Source: an uncultured Caulobacterales bacterium (GTDB lineage: Bacteria > Pseudomonadota > Alphaproteobacteria > Caulobacterales > Maricaulaceae). From it: 45,783 nt of DNA. The notes under the pieces were generated by a model that was not told the DNA's origin, made no database searches, and saw nothing but the letters and a program-made list of their open reading frames with translations. Positions 4,301-30,134 of this stretch are shown here, piece after piece. Each line of letters starts with the position of its first letter. Position 1 is the first letter of the stretch. The stretch is from assembly GCA_937923115.1 (NCBI GenBank), contig CAKZTE010000096.1:1-45783 (forward strand), read 5' to 3'. The position numbers were made by a program, and so were the translations under genes.

Positions 4301-5513
4301 GGCGCAGTACCGATACACAGAGGCGCTTGAGGAAATCCTGAAGGTTGAAGAAGTCGGAAGCTATAAATTTGACGAGGGTGTCGATCTCGAAAAGCTTTTA
4401 GAAATTGGCCGTAATTACCTTGATGTGCCTTATGCTCTGATAACAAAAACCGATGATGACAAAAGCATAATTACACACGCTAAGGGCTTTAAAAAAGCGC
4501 CCAAAGATAGCGATGCGGCCGTTTTTTACAATTTTGAAGACGTCTTAGAGGAGGGTCTCGACTCACTTGTTATGACACATGTTGAGAACAACATGATTGA
4601 GAACGCATTGGGTCTAAAGGACTATATAGGTGTGAGAATTTTGACCCATCGTGAAAAATATGGGATAATGCATTTTGCTAATAATAATGCCCGCAACAAA
4701 CCATTTACGGATATGGAACGCAACGTTGTCCAGTTGCTGTCGCGCTTAGCGGGATTCTTCCTTGATCGAAAAATTCAACTTGAGAATATTCAAAAGCGGC
4801 AGGAAGCTCTTGAAAACGTCAATGAAGGTTTGAACCGCTTTACCTATCTGGCATCACATGATTTGCAAGAACCTTTGCGTAAAATTCAGCAAAGTGGTGA
4901 AATGCTCCATATTGATACGGAAGGGTTACTTGATGAAGACAGTGCTTATTTCTTAAAAATCATGATTGAAGCCTCGGGGCGTATGCGCTCGTTGATTGAC
5001 GACCTTCTGCTTTATTCAGCTTCTGCGAATCAGGACTTTGTTACGGAGGATATTGATCTCGAACGGCTCATCGAACAAGCGGTTAAAGATTTGCAAGGCT
5101 CCATTAATGAGTCTAATGCTACGGTGCATGTCGCCAGCCTGCCCATTGTGGCATGTGATCCCGTTATTATGAAGCAAGTTTTTGTTAATATACTTAGTAA
5201 CAGCCTAAAATACAGGCATGAGGGTACAGAGCCAAAAATCACAGTCTCTGCAAAGACACTAAAATCCGTTACTCACCTTAGCTTTAAAGATAATGGGATT
5301 GGCATGGAGCTTGACGGTAAGATTGATATTTTCGAACCCTTTATTAGGCTCCATTCAAAAACTGTTTATTCTGGTTCAGGCATCGGACTCGCAATCTGTA
5401 AAACAGTTTGCGACCGACATGGTTGGGAAATAGATGTTAAAAGTAAGTTGGATGAAGGCACCGAGGTTATTTTTATTATTCAAAATTCACAAGTAACTAA
5501 AAAATACCCCTAG
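1383..5513 (+). CDS. CheB-CheR-PAS-GAF hybrid histidine kinase
   Basis: A 1376-residue fusion. Residues 28-210 form a CheB methylesterase domain (S34 in GASAGG, H61 in IIQHL, D153 in GTGSDG). Residues 225-480 form a CheR methyltransferase (SAM loop VWVAGCSSGEEAYS, then SCRNVMIYF). Residues 660-740 are a coiled coil of repeated NEEL heptads. Two PAS-like segments (about 745-855 and 865-980) and a GAF-like domain (about 985-1130) follow. The kinase has H1159 in ASHDLQEP, the N box around N1269/N1273, DNGIG and GSGIGLA, so all core elements are present. CheB here lacks its own receiver. The architecture is known in proteobacteria. Five receiver-like genes surround it, and no chemoreceptor, CheA or CheW is in the window, so a non-chemotaxis phosphorelay is the inference. 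Confidence 0.95.
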   Translation: MADSKKMAPKDKLTAPSAARSNKKKVSMVAIGASAGGLEPFERFFDAMPVNSDTAFVIIQHLSPDFESMMDELLSRHSSMDIERVVNELPVKPNTIYLNPPRSKMIIKNGKFILQDKPESRELNLPIDIFFDSFAQEYGREAIAIVLSGTGSDGTRGAAMIKGHEGTVLVQTPASAKFDGMPRSVIESGNFDAMATPSELPTLIKRIREGKTIDQSYTGEIEDDPEKHIFLRLRDKYGTDFGYYKEATLTRRFERRATLAGTDLIGYAKRLATDAEELDALYADMLIDVTSFFRDIKGFKAITKHAIAPLAAKMTHDKQIRVWVAGCSSGEEAYSFAIAFAEHARENNIPLNLKILATDVHQRSLGAAAEGLYPKSSLTGLTEEQIERYFEKHVDYYQVRQQLRRLVVFSRHNLLRDPPFTRMDLVSCRNVMIYFKEQAQQKTLALFHFALRTDAFLFLGPSESLGRLEDEFETLDRRWKIYKKLRDVRLLEATSLLPRDSANRPKPEFTPPYLTGRTGTLQRFQKAHGEALEMMLKDFAPPGFLLNKKGEIVHVFGNAGKFVSIDGGVFSNLIVDLIDPQLKLAVMTGLERLTAAEKLTFERRVIMTDDDGILEQSVVVSLKSLSESTIGPNHFLLTLVSSVHDRLAEEPLPKYLDAGESSQLLQNRIKDLERDLGSTEQSLQALVEELQTSNEELQATNEELMASNEELQSTNEELHSVNEELYTVSSEHQRKIDELTVLSDDMNLLLHATSIGILFLGENLHIRRFTPSAAEVFNLMAQDISRPFAHTTYKFQDKSFQKKVKTVLKTEVPHAQEVQVEGKTYILTILPYVTAVKEASGIVITMVEITDLKAAERARIAEKEIYETVLNDLSEAVFRVHLSDGTLVTCNEQFVNRYCPDLKINQVIGKTLEEVVDPEFKTTIFDRVKGQKVGELTTVLMKRDGIVTSGQLRLLADEKGNPEVLQATAMDITAQYRYTEALEEILKVEEVGSYKFDEGVDLEKLLEIGRNYLDVPYALITKTDDDKSIITHAKGFKKAPKDSDAAVFYNFEDVLEEGLDSLVMTHVENNMIENALGLKDYIGVRILTHREKYGIMHFANNNARNKPFTDMERNVVQLLSRLAGFFLDRKIQLENIQKRQEALENVNEGLNRFTYLASHDLQEPLRKIQQSGEMLHIDTEGLLDEDSAYFLKIMIEASGRMRSLIDDLLLYSASANQDFVTEDIDLERLIEQAVKDLQGSINESNATVHVASLPIVACDPVIMKQVFVNILSNSLKYRHEGTEPKITVSAKTLKSVTHLSFKDNGIGMELDGKIDIFEPFIRLHSKTVYSGSGIGLAICKTVCDRHGWEIDVKSKLDEGTEVIFIIQNSQVTKKYP

Positions 5514-18181: not shown

Positions 18182-20059
18182 TTACTTTAATGTGAAGCCA
18201 ATGAACACGCCAGCCCCCGTATTGTTGTAGCTAAACAGATCTTGGACCGTCTGGTTGAGCAAGTTCTCACCCCGCAGCGTGACCGCGAGGCGGTGCGTGA
18301 GCGGATAAGTGAGGTTGGCCGAAAGCAGCACATAGTCACTGAGCGTCACGCGCTGCGCGGGAAAGGCGCCAAAATTGAAATCATCCTGCGCGCCGACATA
18401 GTCAGCCGCGAGCCCAAAACGCAGTCCCTCTTTGCGCTGGGATTGCCAATTGGCGGCAAGACTGCCTGTAGTCTTTGGGCGGCGAATTTCATCCTCCCCG
18501 CTATTATCCTTGGCGGAGATATTGGACACCGTACCCATTAGGGTGACGCTGTCTGATAGCGCCCAATCTACCGCGAGCTCTATGCCAGAGCGCGTGCTGT
18601 CATTCGTAAGGTTCGCAGGGCTCGAGCTAAAGTCTGGATTAAACCGCGTCGTGATTTCATTTTCTAGCGCGGCATCAAAATAGGTGAGGGAGGCTTGAAG
18701 GGTGCCTAAGTTCTGCTCATATCCCACTTCCCAGCTGTTAGACTTTTCGGGAATTAAGCCTGGGTTGCCAATAAAACTGCCGGGGAAGAATCCGAAAAGC
18801 TCAGTAAAAGTTGGGTTCTTAACGCCTGTTCCCGTGCTGGCGCGGAGTTTTCCGCCAAAACCAAAATTATAAGCCGCGCCAACGCGCCACGTTGTCGTGT
18901 CTTCAAACCGCCCGTCATTATTGTCGCGGCGCACAGAGCCATTGACCGCAGCATTGCCCAAACTCATGCGCGCTTCGCCCGCAAGCCCAAAAGTCTCAAA
19001 GCTTTGCGATTGATTAGGGTCACCAAAGACAGTGTCGGTATCAATGCGCTGATAGGTCTCATCCTCCCAATCGGCGCGGGCCGAGAGGGTGAGGCGGGCC
19101 GCGCCTCGCTCTGCAGCGAAAGAAGGGCTATAGCTAAGTTTTGTACGCTGCCCGATTGTTTCATTGGCAAAAACCCCATTAGTATCCGATACGGTGGAAA
19201 CATCCGTATAGTTAGCGCTTAGGCGGTGGCTTAGGCCCCCTGTTTGTCCAGAAAGATTTGCGCCGACGATGATTTGTTCGGCGGCGGCGTCTTGGTCTGT
19301 ATTATTCAGCGCGCCGTCAAAATCTGTATCAGAATCAAAGTCTACGTCTGAACGCCGAAAGCTGGCCAGTCCGCCAATCTGCCAATCGGGGGAGAGCGTG
19401 ATCCGTGCATTGGCTAAGATAGAATAAGCTGATGAGCCGTCTTTCTCGCCGTCAAGTCCAGCGGTGTCCACGCCGTCTGTGTCAAAGGCCGAGACGGAGA
19501 GGCCAAAGGACGCGTCTTCAACGTCAAACCCGAGGCCCGCTTGGCCGCGAAATGTATCAAACGCCCCATATTCAACTGCGGCATTCAGGCCGTCATTTTT
19601 TGTTGTGATGGCAATAACGCCGCCAATGGCGTCCGATCCATAAAGCCCTGATTGTTCGCCGCGCGCGACTTCTATGCGCGCGCTGCCAAGGCCTGACCAC
19701 AGACCAAAATCGGTTTCGCCTGTTACGGGGTTTGACACTTCAATACCGTTTAGCAGGACAAGTGTGTGATTGCCTTCGGACCCGCGCAGCCGAATTTGGG
19801 TTAGGCCGCCGGCCGCGCCTGAGCGAGAGACAGCAAGGCTAGGCACGGCGCGAAGCTGATCGGCGATATAGGGCGAGTTGCGCAGGGCAAGATCTTGCGC
19901 GTCAATAACGGTTACGCTGGTGGTGATGTCTTTTTCAGCAACGGCGCGCAGGCCGGTGACAATAATTTCATCTGTATCAGTTTGGATAGATTGCGCGAAA
20001 GCAGCGGGCGGGAGTGCGCCGCAAAGCGCCGTTCCAAGAAGAAGGGTTTTGTAAAACAT
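18182..20059 (-). CDS. btuB: TonB-dependent cobalamin receptor
   Basis: A 625-residue outer-membrane receptor. A signal peptide (residues 1-22, AFAQ) is followed by a TonB box-like segment TDEIIVTG. The plug domain follows (SVTVIDAQDL, LRGSEGNHTLVLLNGIEV, ARGEQSGLYGSDAIGGVIAITT), then a 22-strand type barrel ending in F-x-L-K. Length matches BtuB of enteric bacteria. The cobalamin riboswitch in its leader supports the substrate. It heads the btuB-F-C-D operon. Confidence 0.92.
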   Translation of the reverse strand: MFYKTLLLGTALCGALPPAAFAQSIQTDTDEIIVTGLRAVAEKDITTSVTVIDAQDLALRNSPYIADQLRAVPSLAVSRSGAAGGLTQIRLRGSEGNHTLVLLNGIEVSNPVTGETDFGLWSGLGSARIEVARGEQSGLYGSDAIGGVIAITTKNDGLNAAVEYGAFDTFRGQAGLGFDVEDASFGLSVSAFDTDGVDTAGLDGEKDGSSAYSILANARITLSPDWQIGGLASFRRSDVDFDSDTDFDGALNNTDQDAAAEQIIVGANLSGQTGGLSHRLSANYTDVSTVSDTNGVFANETIGQRTKLSYSPSFAAERGAARLTLSARADWEDETYQRIDTDTVFGDPNQSQSFETFGLAGEARMSLGNAAVNGSVRRDNNDGRFEDTTTWRVGAAYNFGFGGKLRASTGTGVKNPTFTELFGFFPGSFIGNPGLIPEKSNSWEVGYEQNLGTLQASLTYFDAALENEITTRFNPDFSSSPANLTNDSTRSGIELAVDWALSDSVTLMGTVSNISAKDNSGEDEIRRPKTTGSLAANWQSQRKEGLRFGLAADYVGAQDDFNFGAFPAQRVTLSDYVLLSANLTYPLTHRLAVTLRGENLLNQTVQDLFSYNNTGAGVFIGFTLK

Positions 20060-20170: not shown

Positions 20171-20200
20171 ATCCGGCATGGCTGAACCCGGCCACCGGAT
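20171..20200 (-). promoter_or_regulatory. Hairpin following the riboswitch (possible expression platform)
   Basis: On the transcript, AUCCGG-UGGC pairs with GCCA-CCGGAU around an 8-base loop with a 2-base bulge. No U run follows, so it is not a simple terminator. It may act in translation control or in rho-dependent termination. Confidence 0.45.
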
Positions 20201-20204
20201 GAAC

Positions 20205-20366
20205 GACGCGATGGCAGGTTTCCTGACTTACCGCTTAGCGCTTGCGCCGCCTTCCCAAAACACAAAAGCGTTTCAGTGGCATAGGGCGTAAGCATACGGC
20301 TTACAGTTACGGGCATAGTGCCAGGTTCTCACTGGCTTCCCTTTTCACTCCTATTACAGAGCACCA
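20205..20366 (-). ncRNA. Cobalamin riboswitch
   Basis: Read on the minus strand, the leader carries the conserved parts in order: GGTGC near the 5-prime end, AAAAGGGAAGCCAGTGAGAA, a GCCCGTAACTGTAAGC core, GCCACTG, and the B12 box AAGTCAGGAAACCTGCCAT (20211-20230 on the plus strand). It lies about 150 bases upstream of btuB and should repress the operon when adenosylcobalamin or a related corrinoid is abundant. Confidence 0.96.
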
Positions 20367-20532
20367 TCTAATTTTCGCTATGAAAGATAAGCCGTAACCT
20401 GTCAATTCATGTTTATGTGGCGTGGCGAAATTAACTCAAGCTTGAGACTTAAGAGACAGTGAAGACAACTTTTAGTCTACTCAGATTCGATCAATTATGC
20501 TGAGTATTAGCAGATTCAATCGTTTTAAAGCG

Positions 20533-22571: not shown

Positions 22572-23603
22572 TTGTTCTTATCTTACGATACTGTTGAAGC
22601 TTTCGCTGTGAAGCGAAATCCTTCGATGAGCTTTCCATTCTTGAAAGAGAATGGGGAGCTCCTTTCCGTTTGCGCCAATGCGGCCGTTCTTATTGAACCC
22701 AGAGCGTTGGAACTTTACATGAATTTCTACGACAATGCGGTGAAGCTGACCGAGCGCTATCCCCAATATTACCGTTTTACGTTGGGAATGGTTCTGGACC
22801 TTGAACTGGGCGGCATTGTTGGGGATCAGGGACAAAGGCTCGCGCGTTATATTGCCCAAGAAAACTATGTCCGCTTTGATACATCAGATGTCAGAAAGCT
22901 CGAAACCCTCTCTATGCTCCGTCAAGCGGGCCAGATGTCTCAAGAAAACGAAACACTCTATGAGGATATAGTCGGACGCATTGATGACTTTGTGCAAAAT
23001 CCCGCTTGGTATACAAAATTCAATAAGCCCCTATTCTATGACCTGACTCATATCATCTTTTTCCTGACAGATTATGGAAAGCAGCCAAACCCGCTGCAAA
23101 GCGATCTGAACGCCTGCCTTATGCACATGGGGACTTTAGCCTTGCTTGATAATGATGCCGATCTGTTATCAGAGATTTGTGTGTGTCTTTTATATATCGG
23201 GCGCCCTGTTCCTGAGTATTGGGATGCCTACCTTACGCAATATAGCCGCGCAATTCGAATTACCTATGACGGCACTGTTGCTTCGGCGCTGAATCCGAAT
23301 GTTGACGAATATCACATTTATCTGGTCCTCAATGCTTATCATGCTGTACGGGGACGGCCGGTTTTCCAAACACGGTTTCGCGGCCGCGCCCCAAGCTTCT
23401 CGCTTCCGCAGGCCCAGCCCACAGTGCTGGAAAAACTCTCTCATTTCTCGCACCAGCAGCATTTCGCCGCTAAGCGCCGCCCGGAACCTTTGGGTAAATT
23501 TGTTACGACTTTGGACAAGACCGACTATTGTCATTGGCAAAGCACATTGGCGTCTTCCAAAAACGGACAAGACCTTATCGAGGCTTTCTCAGGTCTGTCT
23601 TAG
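22572..23603 (+). CDS. Conserved-looking protein of unknown function, 343 residues
   Basis: A soluble, mostly helical protein without signal peptide or membrane segment. Recognisable stretches include MNFYDNAVKLTERYPQYYRFTLGMVLDLE and DEYHIYLVLNAYHAVRGRPVFQTRF. It resembles uncharacterised alphaproteobacterial proteins of this size, but I cannot name the family. The start is uncertain: the TTG at 22572 follows AGAGAG, and the next in-frame ATG is residue 19. The stop codon TAG (23601-23603) falls inside the first of three tandem 19-bp repeats. The gene sits between a secreted protein and a TIR-domain protein, all on the plus strand. Confidence 0.7.
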   Translation: MFLSYDTVEAFAVKRNPSMSFPFLKENGELLSVCANAAVLIEPRALELYMNFYDNAVKLTERYPQYYRFTLGMVLDLELGGIVGDQGQRLARYIAQENYVRFDTSDVRKLETLSMLRQAGQMSQENETLYEDIVGRIDDFVQNPAWYTKFNKPLFYDLTHIIFFLTDYGKQPNPLQSDLNACLMHMGTLALLDNDADLLSEICVCLLYIGRPVPEYWDAYLTQYSRAIRITYDGTVASALNPNVDEYHIYLVLNAYHAVRGRPVFQTRFRGRAPSFSLPQAQPTVLEKLSHFSHQQHFAAKRRPEPLGKFVTTLDKTDYCHWQSTLASSKNGQDLIEAFSGLS

Positions 23604-23655
23604 AGCGATCAGACTTGCTTAGAGCGACCAGACTTGCTTAGAGCGATCAGACTTG
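23599..23655 (+). repeat. Three tandem 19-bp repeats
   Basis: CTTAGAGCGATCAGACTTG occurs three times without gaps (23599-23617, 23618-23636, 23637-23655); the middle copy has one change (GACC for GATC). The array covers the stop codon of the upstream gene and lies about 90 bases before the TIR gene. No spacers occur, so it is not CRISPR. Confidence 0.9.
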
Positions 23656-23745
23656 GGCTAAGGCGGGCGCTTCCTGCTATCCTAAGTTCTTTCTCCTATT
23701 TACATCTCTTGCACTGGGGTTAAACTCAGGCGGGGGAGTATTTAG

Positions 23746-25251
23746 ATTACGGCGCAATATAGATACGCAGGTTTTTTGTCATATGCGCATGCCGATGCGG
23801 ATATTGCCGCGCGACTGCATAGAGCCATAGAGACGTACCGCGTTCCTAAAACTCTTACGGCACGCGGTAAGAAAAAACTCGCGCCGATTTTTCGCGATAC
23901 CGCGGAACTCACGGCGCATCATAATCTGTCTGAGAAAATCCGAGAGGCCGTAAACCGCTCGCGATTTTTGATTGTATTGTGCTCGCCAGCCGCAAAGATA
24001 TCTCACTGGGTCAATGAAGAAGTGCGGCTATTTAGAAAAATTCACGGCGATGAAGCAGTGCTGTGCGTGCTGGCGACCGGAACGCCTGAGACCTCTTTCC
24101 CTCCAGCTCTGACGGAGGGCGGGCGCGAACCGCTCGCCGCGAACCTCTCGGGCGGGAAGGATAGTTTTCGTCTCGGCGTGACGCAATTGGCCGCCGCCAT
24201 GCTCGGAGTTGGACTAGACGCGCTTATACAGCGAGAAGAACAGAGGCGCAGAAACAGATTATGGCTAATAACCTCCAGCTCTGTGCTGTTCTCTGCTATT
24301 ATGGGCGGTATGGCCTTTACCGCTGTGAAGGCGCAAAATGCAGCGGAGACAAGCCGCAGCGAAGCCGAGAAGATGGTTGAGTTCATGCTTACAGATTTAC
24401 GGCAGGATTTAGCGCCAATCGGAAAGCTAGATATTCTGAATAATGTCGGAAGCCGCGCCGCTGAATATTATAATGCTATTCCGAATGCCAATATGGATGA
24501 CGACCGGTTGGCACGGGAAGCGCGCGCTCGGCATTTGCTGGCGGAAGTTGCTCTGGATCAGGGAGATATCGCCAAAGCCGAAGCTGAAATAGAAGCCGCT
24601 TATCTTGCAACCCAAGAGGTCTTGCGGCGTAATCCAAAACAAACCGGGCCCCTTTTTGCTCACGCACAAAGTGCTTATTGGCAAGGTGAGCTGCGACGCC
24701 GTGCAAAAAAGTACCCGCAGATCATCCCATATTGGCAAGAGTACGAAGCTTTAAGCGCTCAACTGCACGGCCATAATCCAGACAATGTTGACTGGATAAA
24801 GGAGGCGGCCTTCGCGCAAAATAATTTAGGCTTCGCCCTAAGACAGCTCAAGGAGTACGATAAGGCGCTCGTGCATTACGAAGCCTCTACAGAATTGTTC
24901 AAGCGCGCATTAAGCCTTTCACCGGGGGATAGTCTTATCTCTTTTGAGCTCGCCAACGTTCTTGCAGGCGCTTCACTATTGGCTTCTAATCTTGGCCAGC
25001 ATCGCGCAGCAAAATCATATCGTCTTGAGCAAATTGAGATTTATGAGGCCCTCCTTTTGGATGACCCAAAGAATTATCCGCTTCTATTTCGCAAAGCCCA
25101 ATCCATGCGGGTTTTCTTTGAAAATTTTGAACCCGATGAAAGCGTGCGGGCGGCGGGTTTAAACGAGGTGAAATCTCAGCTCCGTTTACTCATTGAGCAT
25201 GATGCCAATAACATTTTATGGAACCAAGAATATGAGATGATTAAACCTTAG
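23746..25251 (+). CDS. TIR domain / membrane helix / TPR protein
   Basis: About 501 residues if translation begins at ATT 23746, 491 from the TTG 23776 in the ORF track. The frame upstream of the TTG reads YRYAGFLSYAHADAD, which completes the first TIR strand, and GGGGGAG lies 7 bases before the ATT; an in-frame TAG directly precedes it. TIR features: FLSYAHAD, DTAEL, SRFLIVLCSP and SHWVNEEVRLF, where the second glutamate fits the catalytic position of NAD-cleaving TIR domains. A membrane helix lies about 160 residues in, after basic QRRRNR, so the TIR side is cytoplasmic and the TPR-rich C-terminal 300 residues periplasmic. NADase activity and a defence role are inference. Confidence 0.85.
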   Translation: MTAQYRYAGFLSYAHADADIAARLHRAIETYRVPKTLTARGKKKLAPIFRDTAELTAHHNLSEKIREAVNRSRFLIVLCSPAAKISHWVNEEVRLFRKIHGDEAVLCVLATGTPETSFPPALTEGGREPLAANLSGGKDSFRLGVTQLAAAMLGVGLDALIQREEQRRRNRLWLITSSSVLFSAIMGGMAFTAVKAQNAAETSRSEAEKMVEFMLTDLRQDLAPIGKLDILNNVGSRAAEYYNAIPNANMDDDRLAREARARHLLAEVALDQGDIAKAEAEIEAAYLATQEVLRRNPKQTGPLFAHAQSAYWQGELRRRAKKYPQIIPYWQEYEALSAQLHGHNPDNVDWIKEAAFAQNNLGFALRQLKEYDKALVHYEASTELFKRALSLSPGDSLISFELANVLAGASLLASNLGQHRAAKSYRLEQIEIYEALLLDDPKNYPLLFRKAQSMRVFFENFEPDESVRAAGLNEVKSQLRLLIEHDANNILWNQEYEMIKP

Positions 25252-25265
25252 CCTAACGTCGTGGC

Positions 25266-25892
25266 CTAATTTCCTTGATCTGTACCATCGTTATTTGTAC
25301 CGGGATCAATGATAATTGGCGTTTCCATTGCAATGCCGTCAATCATTTGGGAAATAGTCACATGAAGGTTAAATTTTAGGCCTTCAGGGTTACTGCGGCA
25401 GCGATTGGCCAATAGCAGGTAATTTCTGTCATTGAGCGTGCAAATTTTCTCAAAGTTTCTGAGTAAATCATCCCGATCATTCTCTGTGCTATATTGCTGC
25501 CCTTTAGAGAATTTCCAATTATCTCGAGGGAGATGAAATAACACCCAAACATGTTTGTTCATGTTTAAATCAAGCGGTGTTGGAAGCGGGCCTTCCTTCG
25601 AGTCGCCTTCTTTGAAGTAGCTAATGTAGTCATCAAAGACGCTTTGTACATCAAAGGGATTAAGATGTGTGTTTGACATAAAGTCTGGAATTTCGTCTTT
25701 ACAGTTTTCAAAAACATGTTCGACTTTATCCGCTTTAATGCGGTTACGGGTGAGTTCGCCGTCGCGGTTAATATTAATGGCAACAGGCAGGAGAATGGGT
25801 GTCGGACCGGGACGGTCCTTTTGATATTCATCCCAATCTTTGAGATAACGCTGATTGGGGTTGATGGTCTTTTTTGATGTTGGTCTGGACAT
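25266..25892 (-). CDS. Unknown protein, 208 residues
   Basis: A soluble protein without signal or membrane helix. The N-terminus is basic and polar; the middle contains PVAININRDGELTRNRIKADKVEHVFENC, and the C-terminus FNLHVTISQMIDGIAMETPIIIDPGTNND suggests beta strands. I do not recognise the family. RBS GGGAG precedes ATG 25892. It begins 76 bases after the protease gene on the same strand, so the two form a probable operon convergent with the TIR gene, whose stop is 14 bases away. Confidence 0.7.
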   Translation of the reverse strand: MSRPTSKKTINPNQRYLKDWDEYQKDRPGPTPILLPVAININRDGELTRNRIKADKVEHVFENCKDEIPDFMSNTHLNPFDVQSVFDDYISYFKEGDSKEGPLPTPLDLNMNKHVWVLFHLPRDNWKFSKGQQYSTENDRDDLLRNFEKICTLNDRNYLLLANRCRSNPEGLKFNLHVTISQMIDGIAMETPIIIDPGTNNDGTDQGN

Positions 25893-25968
25893 GTGGGTCT
25901 CCCATTTCGATGGTCTTAAGTTAATGCGGTCTGTTTAAGGGAGTTCAGTTTTTTGTCTGTGACCAGAA

Positions 25969-27789
25969 TCACGCGCGGCCCCCGAAAGACTTCAGGCTCG
26001 GATGCTCGGTAAGCTGCGCGATTGCCATGGCAAGATTAGCGGCTTCTTGTTTGTTAAAGATTTTGAAACCCGCAAAATGAACTCCCAAGAGATCTCCTGT
26101 TTCTATATCAAGAATGGGCGATCCCGAATTACCGCTTAGCGTTGACGCATTATGGCAAATCGCCTGCATTGGAAACCGTGTGGTCTCATCCTGGTCAATA
26201 AAAGCCTGTACGCCGTAAGGGTTTTCGTTATCCGTCGAATGTCGAAAAATGCGTCCTTGGCTGATGCGCTTAACGGCAAAGACGGGGTCCTCTTCAAAGG
26301 CCGCCAAGATATCTGGGTCATCAGGCTCATGGGTGTCGGGATAGCCAATGACGGCAATAGCGCGTCCGTCTAGCGTCTGGGTTGGAATAGACACGCGGTC
26401 GATTGGCGTTCGATTCTTTACAGAGCGGGCGAGCGTATAAATCGCAATATCCAGACCCTTAATCAGTAAAGGCGGCTGCCCGTTAAAGGGTATAAAATCA
26501 GAGGCATCCTTATCTTTCTCCGCGATAAATTCAATACCGCCGCAATCCTCTTCACTCGTCAGATAATGCCCGTAAAAACCGTGTACATGACGGTTGGTCA
26601 TGACGTGGTCGGGCGTAATTAAAAACCCTGTGCCAAATGAATAATCCTGGGCAGAGGGCACGCCCTCTTGCGCGTATCCAATACGTCCCGTTGCATGATA
26701 GGCAGGGCGTAAGACCTTAAACGGCCCCGTGAGCATTTGCAGATTAGACGCTGTTAATTGCCCCGCAGGGCTAAGCGGCGCCGCGACATTCGCGGCATGA
26801 AGGGGGCTGCCAGGGAAAATGACGCCGCCATTTTCTGGCCTCTTAGATAAATTAGAGGGGCGCTTTTGCACGCGCCCTAATGACCTTTGTAGTGGTAAAC
26901 CCTTGGCGCCATGGGGCAGCGGCGCTTTAGGCCGCCTCAAGGATAGCGTCCCAAGACCTATCGCGAGCAGGCCTAACGCGGCCGCAGCAATTATCCATAT
27001 AAGGCTGCTGCCTGAAGGTTCCGCCGGGCCCGTTGTCTGGGCCCCGCCCGTACTGCTGCTCTCGCCGCTGTCCGCGCCACTGCTTAAAGGAGGGAGGTTA
27101 ATGAGGCTTGAGCAGGGCAAGGTGTAAATTGCGTATCGCGCATCACCCCAACTGCCCGGTAACATTAAAAGCTTTGGATCTTGACCCTTTGGTATTGTGG
27201 TGAAAAACTCTGCGAAGGGATAAGTCTCTTGTCCCTTAAAAGGTTTGCCGTCACGCGGGCTTGTTGACTTTATTATCCTTTCTGGCGGCGAAAGCGAGGC
27301 CATTATTTCGGCCCAATGGGCGGGGTCCAAAGGCTCCCCATTTGCAGGACCAAAAAAATCTGCAGTCATTGACGCATAAGCCGCCGTAAAATCACCCTGT
27401 CCAGAGATAACGCTTTTATCAGCCCACACCCGTCCCGCGAGACCTGGCGTAAAAAAGATATCCATGCTGCCGCCGCGATTGAACTCTTCTTGTAAGGTTT
27501 CGCTAACCTGTTGCCGCCATGTAATGAACCGCACAGAACAGTCATTAATTTCTTCCCGGGACGTATTAATGTTAAAGTTAAACAGCGCAGGATTATCCGC
27601 GCGCGTTCTAAAATTCTCTGGGTCGCTATACTTAAGGCTCAGCCTATCGCCTTGCTGCTGTAGGACAATAAAATCATATCCCGCGATAATTTCGGCTTTT
27701 ACTTGTCTGGTTATAGGTTCAGCCTGAACCACCGCGTGTAGCCATCCGGCCGCAATCACGGCAATAACCCTCATATAGTTGAATTTCAT
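25969..27789 (-). CDS. Membrane-spanning protein with trypsin-like protease domain
   Basis: A 606-residue protein. Residues 1-23 form a signal peptide (VVQA-E). Residues 24-260 are a domain of unknown type ending in a serine/glycine-rich linker. A membrane helix lies at about 262-284, followed by basic RRPK. The C-terminal chymotrypsin-fold domain (about 360-600) has the triad H401 (TNRHVHG), D447 (GLDIAIY) and S555 (SGNSGSP). A cleaved signal plus one helix with positive charges after it places the protease in the cytoplasm and the N-terminal domain in the periplasm. This differs from DegP-type proteases, which are periplasmic. RBS GGGGGAG is strong. The substrate is unknown. Confidence 0.85.
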   Translation of the reverse strand: MKFNYMRVIAVIAAGWLHAVVQAEPITRQVKAEIIAGYDFIVLQQQGDRLSLKYSDPENFRTRADNPALFNFNINTSREEINDCSVRFITWRQQVSETLQEEFNRGGSMDIFFTPGLAGRVWADKSVISGQGDFTAAYASMTADFFGPANGEPLDPAHWAEIMASLSPPERIIKSTSPRDGKPFKGQETYPFAEFFTTIPKGQDPKLLMLPGSWGDARYAIYTLPCSSLINLPPLSSGADSGESSSTGGAQTTGPAEPSGSSLIWIIAAAALGLLAIGLGTLSLRRPKAPLPHGAKGLPLQRSLGRVQKRPSNLSKRPENGGVIFPGSPLHAANVAAPLSPAGQLTASNLQMLTGPFKVLRPAYHATGRIGYAQEGVPSAQDYSFGTGFLITPDHVMTNRHVHGFYGHYLTSEEDCGGIEFIAEKDKDASDFIPFNGQPPLLIKGLDIAIYTLARSVKNRTPIDRVSIPTQTLDGRAIAVIGYPDTHEPDDPDILAAFEEDPVFAVKRISQGRIFRHSTDNENPYGVQAFIDQDETTRFPMQAICHNASTLSGNSGSPILDIETGDLLGVHFAGFKIFNKQEAANLAMAIAQLTEHPSLKSFGGRA

Positions 27790-27936
27790 GTGTCTGCTCC
27801 CCCAAAACTACACATACAGATTGACAGGAGAGTATCCATAAGAAAAGTAGAACTACCATGACGGCCATCACGTTGGTGGCTGGAATTTAAATATAGAAGA
27901 TGAAGCAGGGCACTTTATCTTTTGAAGAAAAACGCT

Positions 27937-29457
27937 ATGACCTTTGCAATGAACGCCCCCTCACACCATGACTTTATCGGGAGCTATGAAAGCGCCATAA
28001 AAGGATTAGAGAGCGCGCCCGATAATCGCGTGCTACAGCATCAGGCTGTACTGGCGCTCGCTCGCATGGGGTCGCTCGATTTAGCCCTCTCTGAATATGA
28101 ACGCTACGGTCTATCGTCGGTCCGCAATCATGAGGATATAATGGCGCTGGGGGCGCGCCTGTCCAAAGACCTTTATTTGGCGACGTCAGGCGCAGCGTCT
28201 AAACAGCATGGCCTGAACTCAGCCCAAAAATATGAAGCTGCCTATAATGACACGCGCGGTTATTATTCAGGCATTAACTCTGCAACCATGGCTTTGCTGG
28301 CCGACATGCCGGGCGACATTGTAAAATCGCGCGCGCTGCACATACAAAAAACATTGCCGCCGGTGAAAAACCTGACGCCAACGGATTATTACTTTATCGA
28401 AGCGACGCGCGCCGAGTGTTTTTTACTGTTGGATGACATTGAAGGCGCGGTGAAAAGCCTGCGCCTTGCCATTGACTTTGATCCGCTCAATTATACCGCC
28501 CACGCCACAAGCTTAAAACAGTTTCGCCTCATTCAGCGCAAGAAACAGTCTGCGGTCGATTGGCTCGAGGAATTTATGCCGCCGCGCCCCGCCCATTTTG
28601 CTGGGCATATTTGGAACCATGAAAGCCCGCCCTCACGCCCATTGTATGAAAACATGCTCAATCAAATATCAGATGCTATTCAGCAAAACGATATTGGATA
28701 TGGCTTTGGCGCGTTAGCGGCGGGCGCTGATATTGTTATTGCTGAGCGGCTCATTCAAGAAGGCGCTGAACTGCATGTTATTTTGCCAAGCGGGGCTGAT
28801 AATTTTGTCGAGACCTCTGTGCGTCCATTTGGGAGTGATTGGGTGCCGCGTTTTGCGGCCTGTATGAAGCAGGCCGCCTCTACAAAAATCATGCACCTCT
28901 CAAGCCAAGCTAAGCAAGAAGACCTCTATTTGATTGCTGGGAATGTGGCGATGGGGCAGGCGATAATAAAGGGGCAGCAATTTGACGTCGAAGCCGCGCA
29001 AGTTTTAATTCTGGACGACAGCGTAAAAGGGTCGATGACCACGCTGCATTCCGCTAAATGGCAAAAGACGACATTGCCGCAAATTTTAGTACCCGCGTCA
29101 CTTACCGCAAGCCAAAGCAAATCTCTCCGCCGCGCGCCCAAGGAGCTTGATATTGTTATGATGATTTCAGGGCAGGAAAAAACGCAAAATTTCACCTCTC
29201 TTGGCAGCGCTCTCAAAGCGGCGCGCGAGATGTTGACGGGTGATGAAACACTCACAATCGCTTTGGCTTATGCTTATGATGATGTCGAGGCAACACTCGC
29301 GGCCTTGACCGCCAGAGGGCTATCCGCCTCTATTTTGATGTCTTATGAAATCGCGGCTTCGGTTGCGCTTAGCGAGACAAGTGAAAATGTCGGCTATGCG
29401 GGTATCATAAAAGGCGCGTTTGAGCGCATGGAACACGTCTTTACCATGCGGCGTTAA
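27937..29457 (+). CDS. TPR protein with SLOG-like module and decayed cyclase-like tail
   Basis: About 506 residues from ATG 27937; the track starts at a TTG 15 bases earlier. The N-terminal 220 residues are helical and TPR-like. Residues about 245-310 read GYGFGALAAGADIVIAERLIQEGAELHVILPSG...FVETSVRPFGSDWVPRF, the pattern of a Rossmann/SLOG-like module seen in proteobacterial proteins joined to class III nucleotide cyclases. The C-terminus (SYEIAASVALSETSENVGYAGIIKGAFERMEHVFTMRR) lines up with the end of a cyclase domain, but the metal-binding aspartates are not apparent, so a catalytically dead relic is inferred. It is divergent from the protease gene and convergent with the Crp/Fnr gene. 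Confidence 0.7.
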   Translation: MTFAMNAPSHHDFIGSYESAIKGLESAPDNRVLQHQAVLALARMGSLDLALSEYERYGLSSVRNHEDIMALGARLSKDLYLATSGAASKQHGLNSAQKYEAAYNDTRGYYSGINSATMALLADMPGDIVKSRALHIQKTLPPVKNLTPTDYYFIEATRAECFLLLDDIEGAVKSLRLAIDFDPLNYTAHATSLKQFRLIQRKKQSAVDWLEEFMPPRPAHFAGHIWNHESPPSRPLYENMLNQISDAIQQNDIGYGFGALAAGADIVIAERLIQEGAELHVILPSGADNFVETSVRPFGSDWVPRFAACMKQAASTKIMHLSSQAKQEDLYLIAGNVAMGQAIIKGQQFDVEAAQVLILDDSVKGSMTTLHSAKWQKTTLPQILVPASLTASQSKSLRRAPKELDIVMMISGQEKTQNFTSLGSALKAAREMLTGDETLTIALAYAYDDVEATLAALTARGLSASILMSYEIAASVALSETSENVGYAGIIKGAFERMEHVFTMRR

Positions 29458-29474
29458 GGGCCATTATTGCGGGC

Positions 29475-30134
29475 CTATTTGAACGCATCCGCGAGCTTTT
29501 GCGGCTGTTCAACAATTAAGGCGCCTGGCTGGCGCGATAAAATCCCGAGCTTTTGCAAGTCACTCACCGTGCGCGATACCGTCTCCCGCGTAGAATTAAC
29601 GCGCCGCGCCAGGTCAACATAAACAGGGTTGGGGCGAATAATGTGTTTGTTGGGATCAATCCCAATCTCGCAAGAGAGGCGTATAAGCTCGGCGCAAATG
29701 CGTCCCTTAGCTGATAAAGCATAGGCTTGGACAAGACTGTGCGTCATGCGCCCCAGGCGTTTTGCAAAATCATTTATGACGGCGTGTTGAAGGGTGTTAT
29801 CGGCGTCCATCAACTCTCGCATCTTTGCGGCAGGCAAACGGTAAAGTGTTGTTTGGGTCGCCGTGACTAGTTCAAATTGGCTTGGGAGAGCGCCCAAAAA
29901 TGCCATGTGCCCGATGAAATCGCCCGATTTAAACTCGCCTATCCAGATTTGGTCACCATTTTCAGACAGAACAATCGCTTCAACGGAGCCCGAAACCACC
30001 AGTCCAAAATATTCTGAGGCTTGGCCTTGAAAGTCTAAAGTTTGGTTTGGCGCATAGGTTTTTTGAACAGCATTTTGCTCAAATAGCCTCCACCACATGT
30101 GCCCCGCGTGACTCTCCATGCAATCTGCTAACAT
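29475..30134 (-). CDS. Crp/Fnr-family transcriptional regulator
   Basis: A 219-residue protein with an N-terminal cyclic nucleotide-binding-type beta roll (about residues 15-125, FGLVVSGSVEAIV, GEFKSGDFIGHMAFLG), a dimerisation helix, and a C-terminal winged helix (VYVDLARRVNSTRETVSRTVSDLQKLGIL). No N-terminal cysteine cluster is present, so it is not an oxygen-sensing Fnr with an iron-sulphur centre. The phosphate-binding RxS motif of true cAMP receptors is not evident, so the ligand is unknown. It is divergent from the pilus operon and shares its intergenic region, making it a candidate regulator of those genes. ATG at 30134; a second ATG five codons in is possible. Confidence 0.92.
   Translation of the reverse strand: MLADCMESHAGHMWWRLFEQNAVQKTYAPNQTLDFQGQASEYFGLVVSGSVEAIVLSENGDQIWIGEFKSGDFIGHMAFLGALPSQFELVTATQTTLYRLPAAKMRELMDADNTLQHAVINDFAKRLGRMTHSLVQAYALSAKGRICAELIRLSCEIGIDPNKHIIRPNPVYVDLARRVNSTRETVSRTVSDLQKLGILSRQPGALIVEQPQKLADAFK

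Follow-up and report, generated by a model that had tools for sequence, protein, structure and literature searches.

A TIR-domain gene with a probable AUU start codon in a clade with recurrent AUU, AUC or AUA starts

In the window (the whole stretch of 45,783 nt that was analysed), the gene at 23746–25251 on the + strand, whose product has a TIR domain at its N-terminus, followed by a membrane helix and TPR repeats, is very probably translated from an AUU codon at 23746, judging from its reading frame, its ribosome-binding site and its aligned homologues. Relatives in other genera carry AUU, AUC or AUA (together AUH) at exactly this codon, and therefore the odd start appears to be a lasting and probably regulatory feature of the TIR clade across genera and no sequencing slip. 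The whole account proposed here, AUU initiation driven by a strong Shine-Dalgarno (SD) sequence on a short leader, giving a low and IF3-repressible output of a potentially toxic TIR protein, is given a probability of roughly 0.8.

The open reading frame counted from the ATT comprises 501 codons and ends at a TAG (25249–25251). Reading directly from the sequence, another TAG (23743–23745) lies in frame immediately before the ATT (23746–23748, codon 1) and bars any upstream start, while the SD sequence GGGGGAG (23732–23738) ends 7 nt before the ATT and forms a duplex of −8.6 kcal/mol with the 16S tail, that is, a strong and correctly spaced site as expected of an AUH-started gene. The original prediction had named all three elements, and each was found, in the stated frame, on direct sequence check. 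Near the N-terminus, the sole canonical start codon is a TTG at codon 11 (23776–23778), inside the predicted strand A of the TIR domain.

Start codons were then compared among 20 distinct clade members, the window included, which were read base by base. The codon aligned to the ATT was AUH in 11/20: ATT in five (the window, L003, L008, L017 and L019), ATC in five (L014, L015, L020, L021 and L052) and ATA in one (L011). The remaining nine members have ATG (7) or GTG (2), at codon 1 or a few codons away. ATG occupied the exact codon in L006, which is 70% identical to the window protein, and in L010 and L012, which answers the earlier proposal to look for such homologues, and GTG occupied it in L013; one codon downstream lie the ATG of L005 and the GTG of L007, an ATG (and a GTG) lies just upstream in L022, and an ATG lies four codons upstream in L016 and L018. 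The presence of AUH, ATG or GTG at the aligned codon supported the predicted use of the ATT as the start. Over the stretch that begins at the in-frame stop upstream and runs through codon 60, L008 (ATT) and L014 (ATC) contain no ATG, GTG or TTG, and the window has just the TTG at codon 11. The other eight AUH members beside the window (L003, L011, L015, L017, L019, L020, L021 and L052) do have an upstream in-frame ATG, GTG or TTG, most of which lack a spaced SD or fall 5′ of or within the predicted promoter. In detail, upstream in-frame ATG or TTG codons lie inside or before the predicted promoter in L015, L017 and, for its distant codons, L003, and the TTG two codons 5′ of the ATT in L003 abuts the SD directly with zero spacer. 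These results indicated AUH starts without a usable canonical start, forced in the window, L008 and L014, and a start class that is conserved among relatives (11/20, with one all-AUH clade of six) without being universal. A class-wide search added two more full-length relatives and a partial third outside the order; there, L220 has an ATG right after an in-frame TAG, and L219 has several canonical starts. As a separate observation, a truncated and broken second TIR copy that starts with ATG (G037, L049, about 5150–5380, − strand) adjoins the intact ATT-start copy L017.

The SD duplex energies of the AUH members were −5.5 to −10.9 kcal/mol, 8/11 of them at or below −8.4 kcal/mol, a level reached by 6% of ordinary genes, whose median was −3.7 kcal/mol (119 ATG genes of G001, calculated with the standard 16S tail GGATCACCTCCTT). 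The AUG and GUG members of the clade have similarly strong sites, and the SD sequence is identical in the sister pair L011 (ATA) and L013 (GTG). In the window, a sigma-70-like promoter, TTTACA-16-TAAACT, is predicted at 23699–23726 (+), with a predicted leader of about 13 nt. Across the clade, the −10 element of the best promoter match ended 14–34 nt before codon 1 in 15/20 members (p about 1e-6), positions that would give leaders of about 10–23 nt. The leader and start region gave no RNA fold beyond shuffles (z 0.87), which provides no evidence for a riboswitch-like element at the TIR start, and no Rfam element was found in this region. Elsewhere in the window, a cobalamin riboswitch lies at 20196–20383 (−), upstream of a TonB-dependent receptor gene (18182–20059), and the 19-nt unit CTTAGAGCGATCAGACTTG is repeated three times in tandem at 23599–23655, one of the copies carrying a single change; the repeats overlap the terminal part of the DUF6902 gene as well as intergenic sequence ahead of the TIR promoter.

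Column analysis gave pairwise identities of 0.72, 0.72 and 0.22 for the three bases of codon 1, while codons 0 and 2–5 were mostly near random identity and a G-rich peak lay two to three codons 5′ of codon 1. Codon 1 is thus a conservation spike in an unconserved stretch, with AU retained and the third base free. Of the codons in long open reading frames, 6.0% are ATH, yet every clade member without an ATG or GTG start carries ATH at exactly codon 1, more than expected by chance. A background set comprised 528 non-overlapping open reading frames with cross-genome homologues, in which a canonical start was sought near the onset of conservation; 17/528 had none, and three of the 17 belong to the TIR family, the rest being mostly IS copies, fragments or genes with an ATG a few codons later, with about two plausible AUH starts. 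The 208-aa protein, TPR-S and CRP-type regulator genes of the same locus had canonical starts in 37/37 copies, and AUH in the TIR gene differed from the starts of these neighbours at p 1e-6 (Fisher test, run with 36 neighbour copies). On the family tree, the AUH label requires 6 changes, at least 3 of which are forced by well-supported branches; six long-branched members that form a supported clade are all AUH, with U/C changes and no AUG. Two further open reading frames are recorded here: an acyl-CoA carboxylase beta-like one (L117, G044:C2:178054-179701, −) seems ATT-started (CAGGAGCGCCCC ATT CCC GTC) and has an ATG-started homologue in G001, and for a membrane-protein one (L176, G001:C1:746461-748150, +) the sole nearby start looks like the ATC following AAGGAGTGGCCT.

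Several other readings of the TIR start were weighed. Translation from TTG 23776, giving a shortened TIR protein, would use the first standard start 3′ of the TAG, and a weak AGGT (23769–23772) lies just before it, so that the original statement that such a start would have no ribosome site was slightly too strong. On this reading the strong, conserved SD would go unused. The residues 5′ of the TTG, ITAQYRYAGF, complete the first TIR strand, and strand A spans residues 7–12 in the AlphaFold2 prediction, so a TTG start would remove residues 7–10 of it, including Y7 and F10, which are invariant in 20 homologues, confirming the predicted loss of the first strand. Moreover, codon 11 is TTG in the window only, the clade members having GTA, ATA, ATC, ATT, TTA or ATG there, so this TTG is not a conserved start, and no homologue begins at its position, the case that had been named as one that would speak against AUU; we consider this reading highly improbable. 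An error that turned ATG into ATT is conceivable in the window's metagenome-assembled genome (G000, 2.11 Mb in 164 contigs, 73% complete), but ten sequences from another nine genomes also have ATT, ATC or ATA at this position, among them L003 from the window's own genus, whose genome is a single contig, so that the possibility of a sequencing error, raised with the original prediction, does not hold and is the least credible of all. Codon 1 could also be an internal Ile of a longer protein begun upstream, at least in some members, since in-frame ATG codons lie 22 codons upstream in L003 and 8 codons upstream in L017. Against this, an in-frame TAG stands at −1 in the window and at −6 in L008, L014 lacks any canonical start, no amino-acid conservation was found 5′ of codon 1 beyond the G-rich site, and the upstream codons fall within the predicted promoter or 5′ of it, making an internal Ile very hard to sustain. 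Initiation upstream followed by a programmed frameshift was likewise rejected, as the other frames offered no useful start there.

A reading that leaves the AUU start in place holds that it is real but neutral, in that a strong SD makes the identity of the start codon nearly irrelevant at small amounts and the third base drifts with no selected IF3 control. The random identity of the third base (0.22), the equally strong SD of the AUG and GUG members and the roughly six switches of start class on the tree all fit this. However, AUH with an extended SD still costs about 90% of output in S. aureus (PMC13009471), drift to AUH is not seen in the ordinary genes of these genomes (about 2/511), and the six-member long-branched clade kept AUH throughout its U/C changes. 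Neutrality is therefore rated unlikely, though well above the readings of the preceding paragraph.

In the account preferred here, the very strong SD, placed right at the 5′ end of the predicted, very short leader, would set the initiator tRNA, whose use at this codon we infer, on the near-cognate AUU. Except on AUG, GUG and UUG, initiation complexes are destabilised by IF3, so a low TIR output would be expected, with a rise under IF3 shortage, parallel to infC and Streptomyces sigR. An AUU with a strong and well-placed SD is the arrangement of infC and other verified noncanonical starts, and together with the sigR and S. aureus precedents it suggests weak, IF3-sensitive translation; on this analogy, IF3-dependent low expression of the TIR gene is somewhat favoured. 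A demand for only small amounts of a TIR protein that would cleave NAD and may be toxic would preserve the weak codon, or at least permit it. Keeping a toxic effector under tight control is a plausible role for such a start, as had been suggested from the sequence, but that it was selected as a safety device can be put forward only tentatively: with AUG or GUG in nine of 20 members and a free third base, the weak start may be tolerated and not selected, and the equally strong SD of the AUG and GUG members suggests that control can be given up.

The gene for IF3 itself, infC, is the textbook AUH-start gene. In the window's bacterial family, the 26 infC genes read start with ATA (23) or ATC (3), ATC being the codon of the window's genus, so the host has the AUH arrangement that underlies IF3 feedback. 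Like the TIR clade, infC combines an AUH start with an SD and, from genus to genus, keeps AU but changes the third base. Unlike the TIR clade, infC is autoregulated and was never ATG among the 26 read, whereas the TIR genes mix AUH with AUG and GUG and encode no translation factor. At the infC loci, the IF3_N model scored about 80–93 bits in TIR-clade genera vs. about 103–114 bits in genera g12 and g15.

Among other genes with unusual starts, Streptomyces sigR begins with GTC (GTT in two species) behind a conserved strong ribosome-binding site, and its repression by IF3 is experimental (PMC5472188). It resembles the TIR gene as a non-translation gene with a noncanonical start and a strong conserved site, and is usually misannotated; it differs in that its codon is GTC and not AUH, and in that its IF3 control rests on experiment, whereas we infer that of the TIR gene (PMC5472188). 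When S. aureus was grown in poor medium, output from AUU or AUA behind an extended SD was about 10% of that from AUG, and Staphylococcus cvfC1 (AUU) and ccpN (AUA) share conserved AUH codons and extended SD motifs with the TIR clade, while being Firmicute genes of other function, with no minimal leader described in the available part of the source (PMC13009471). The Borrelia gene pncA/BBE22 also starts with AUU, and an annotation that ignores this codon yields a truncated protein that is structurally impossible, but it is reported as a single gene and not clade-wide (PMC13398362). The literature searched yielded no description of TIR genes with AUH starts, nor, with the terms tried, of such starts in Alphaproteobacteria.

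The 501-aa protein matched PF13676 (TIR_2, 1.9e-10), PF08937 (ThsB_TIR, 3.3e-8) and TPR models. When the TIR part was modelled alone, Foldseek matched it to TLR1, AbTir and SARM1, a predicted TIR fold with strand A intact, while the full-length model matched TPR proteins only, and a PDB sequence search with the protein returned TPR-type proteins only and no TIR match. Glu92 (24019–24021, +) of a WVNEE motif is invariant in 20/20 members and is the likely catalytic Glu expected of TIR NADases; we take it to correspond to the catalytic Glu of SARM1. The predicted fold near AbTir, SARM1 and TLR and the invariant WVNEE make NAD cleavage likely and a low output sensible. The bacterial TIR NADases AbTir, PdTIR and ThsB, and SARM1, share the TIR fold and a W-x-x-x-E motif with the window protein, which differs from them by its fusion to a membrane helix and TPR repeats and by a predicted NADase activity; no AUH start was found for any of the four in the literature searched.

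The TIR gene heads a conserved locus in the order TIR (+), 208-aa protein (−), membrane trypsin (−), TPR-S (+) and CRP-type regulator (−), and the same order and orientation were found in several genera, partly without TPR-S and the CRP-type regulator. The 208-aa partner (25266–25892, −) has weak matches to pNTSase1 and cyclase tails (pNTSase1 tail, Pfam 2.5e-4, below the cut-off), and apart from the window, 13 genomes have it next to the TIR gene. The membrane trypsin-like protease is encoded at 25969–27789 (−; PF13365, 1.3e-11), the predicted sensor TPR-S at 27922–29457 (+; PF20308, 2.5e-12; probable start ATG 27937), and the CRP/FNR-type regulator at the edge of the locus at 29475–30134 (−; PF00027, PF13545). 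Trypsin-like domains are parts of predicted counter-invader systems (PMC8195603), and the TPR-S module, going by its family name, is also predicted to be part of such systems. The cassette at 25266–30134 keeps its gene order in many genomes and resembles a conflict or stress system not yet described. Thoeris (ThsA/ThsB) was considered and rejected, as the ThsB match is weak and the neighbours are the 208-aa protein, trypsin, TPR-S and CRP-type genes instead of ThsA. It is a long shot that the clade's membrane TIR-TPR effectors are IF3-controlled through AUH on almost leaderless mRNAs, with the TIR/protease/TPR-S locus armed when IF3 or initiation fidelity falls, e.g., when an invader perturbs translation.

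Genes that start with AUU, AUC or AUA are very few and mostly known singly, as infC, pcnB, pncA, cvfC1 and ccpN. AUH starts are thus a known kind, and what stands out here is a whole clade of immune-type TIR effectors that uses them repeatedly across genera. An annotation pipeline that allows no start besides ATG, GTG and TTG would probably give the proteins of this clade a wrong N-terminus, either truncated or extended. The natural AUH, GUG and AUG members make it directly testable by comparison whether a weak start is a control device for dangerous proteins.
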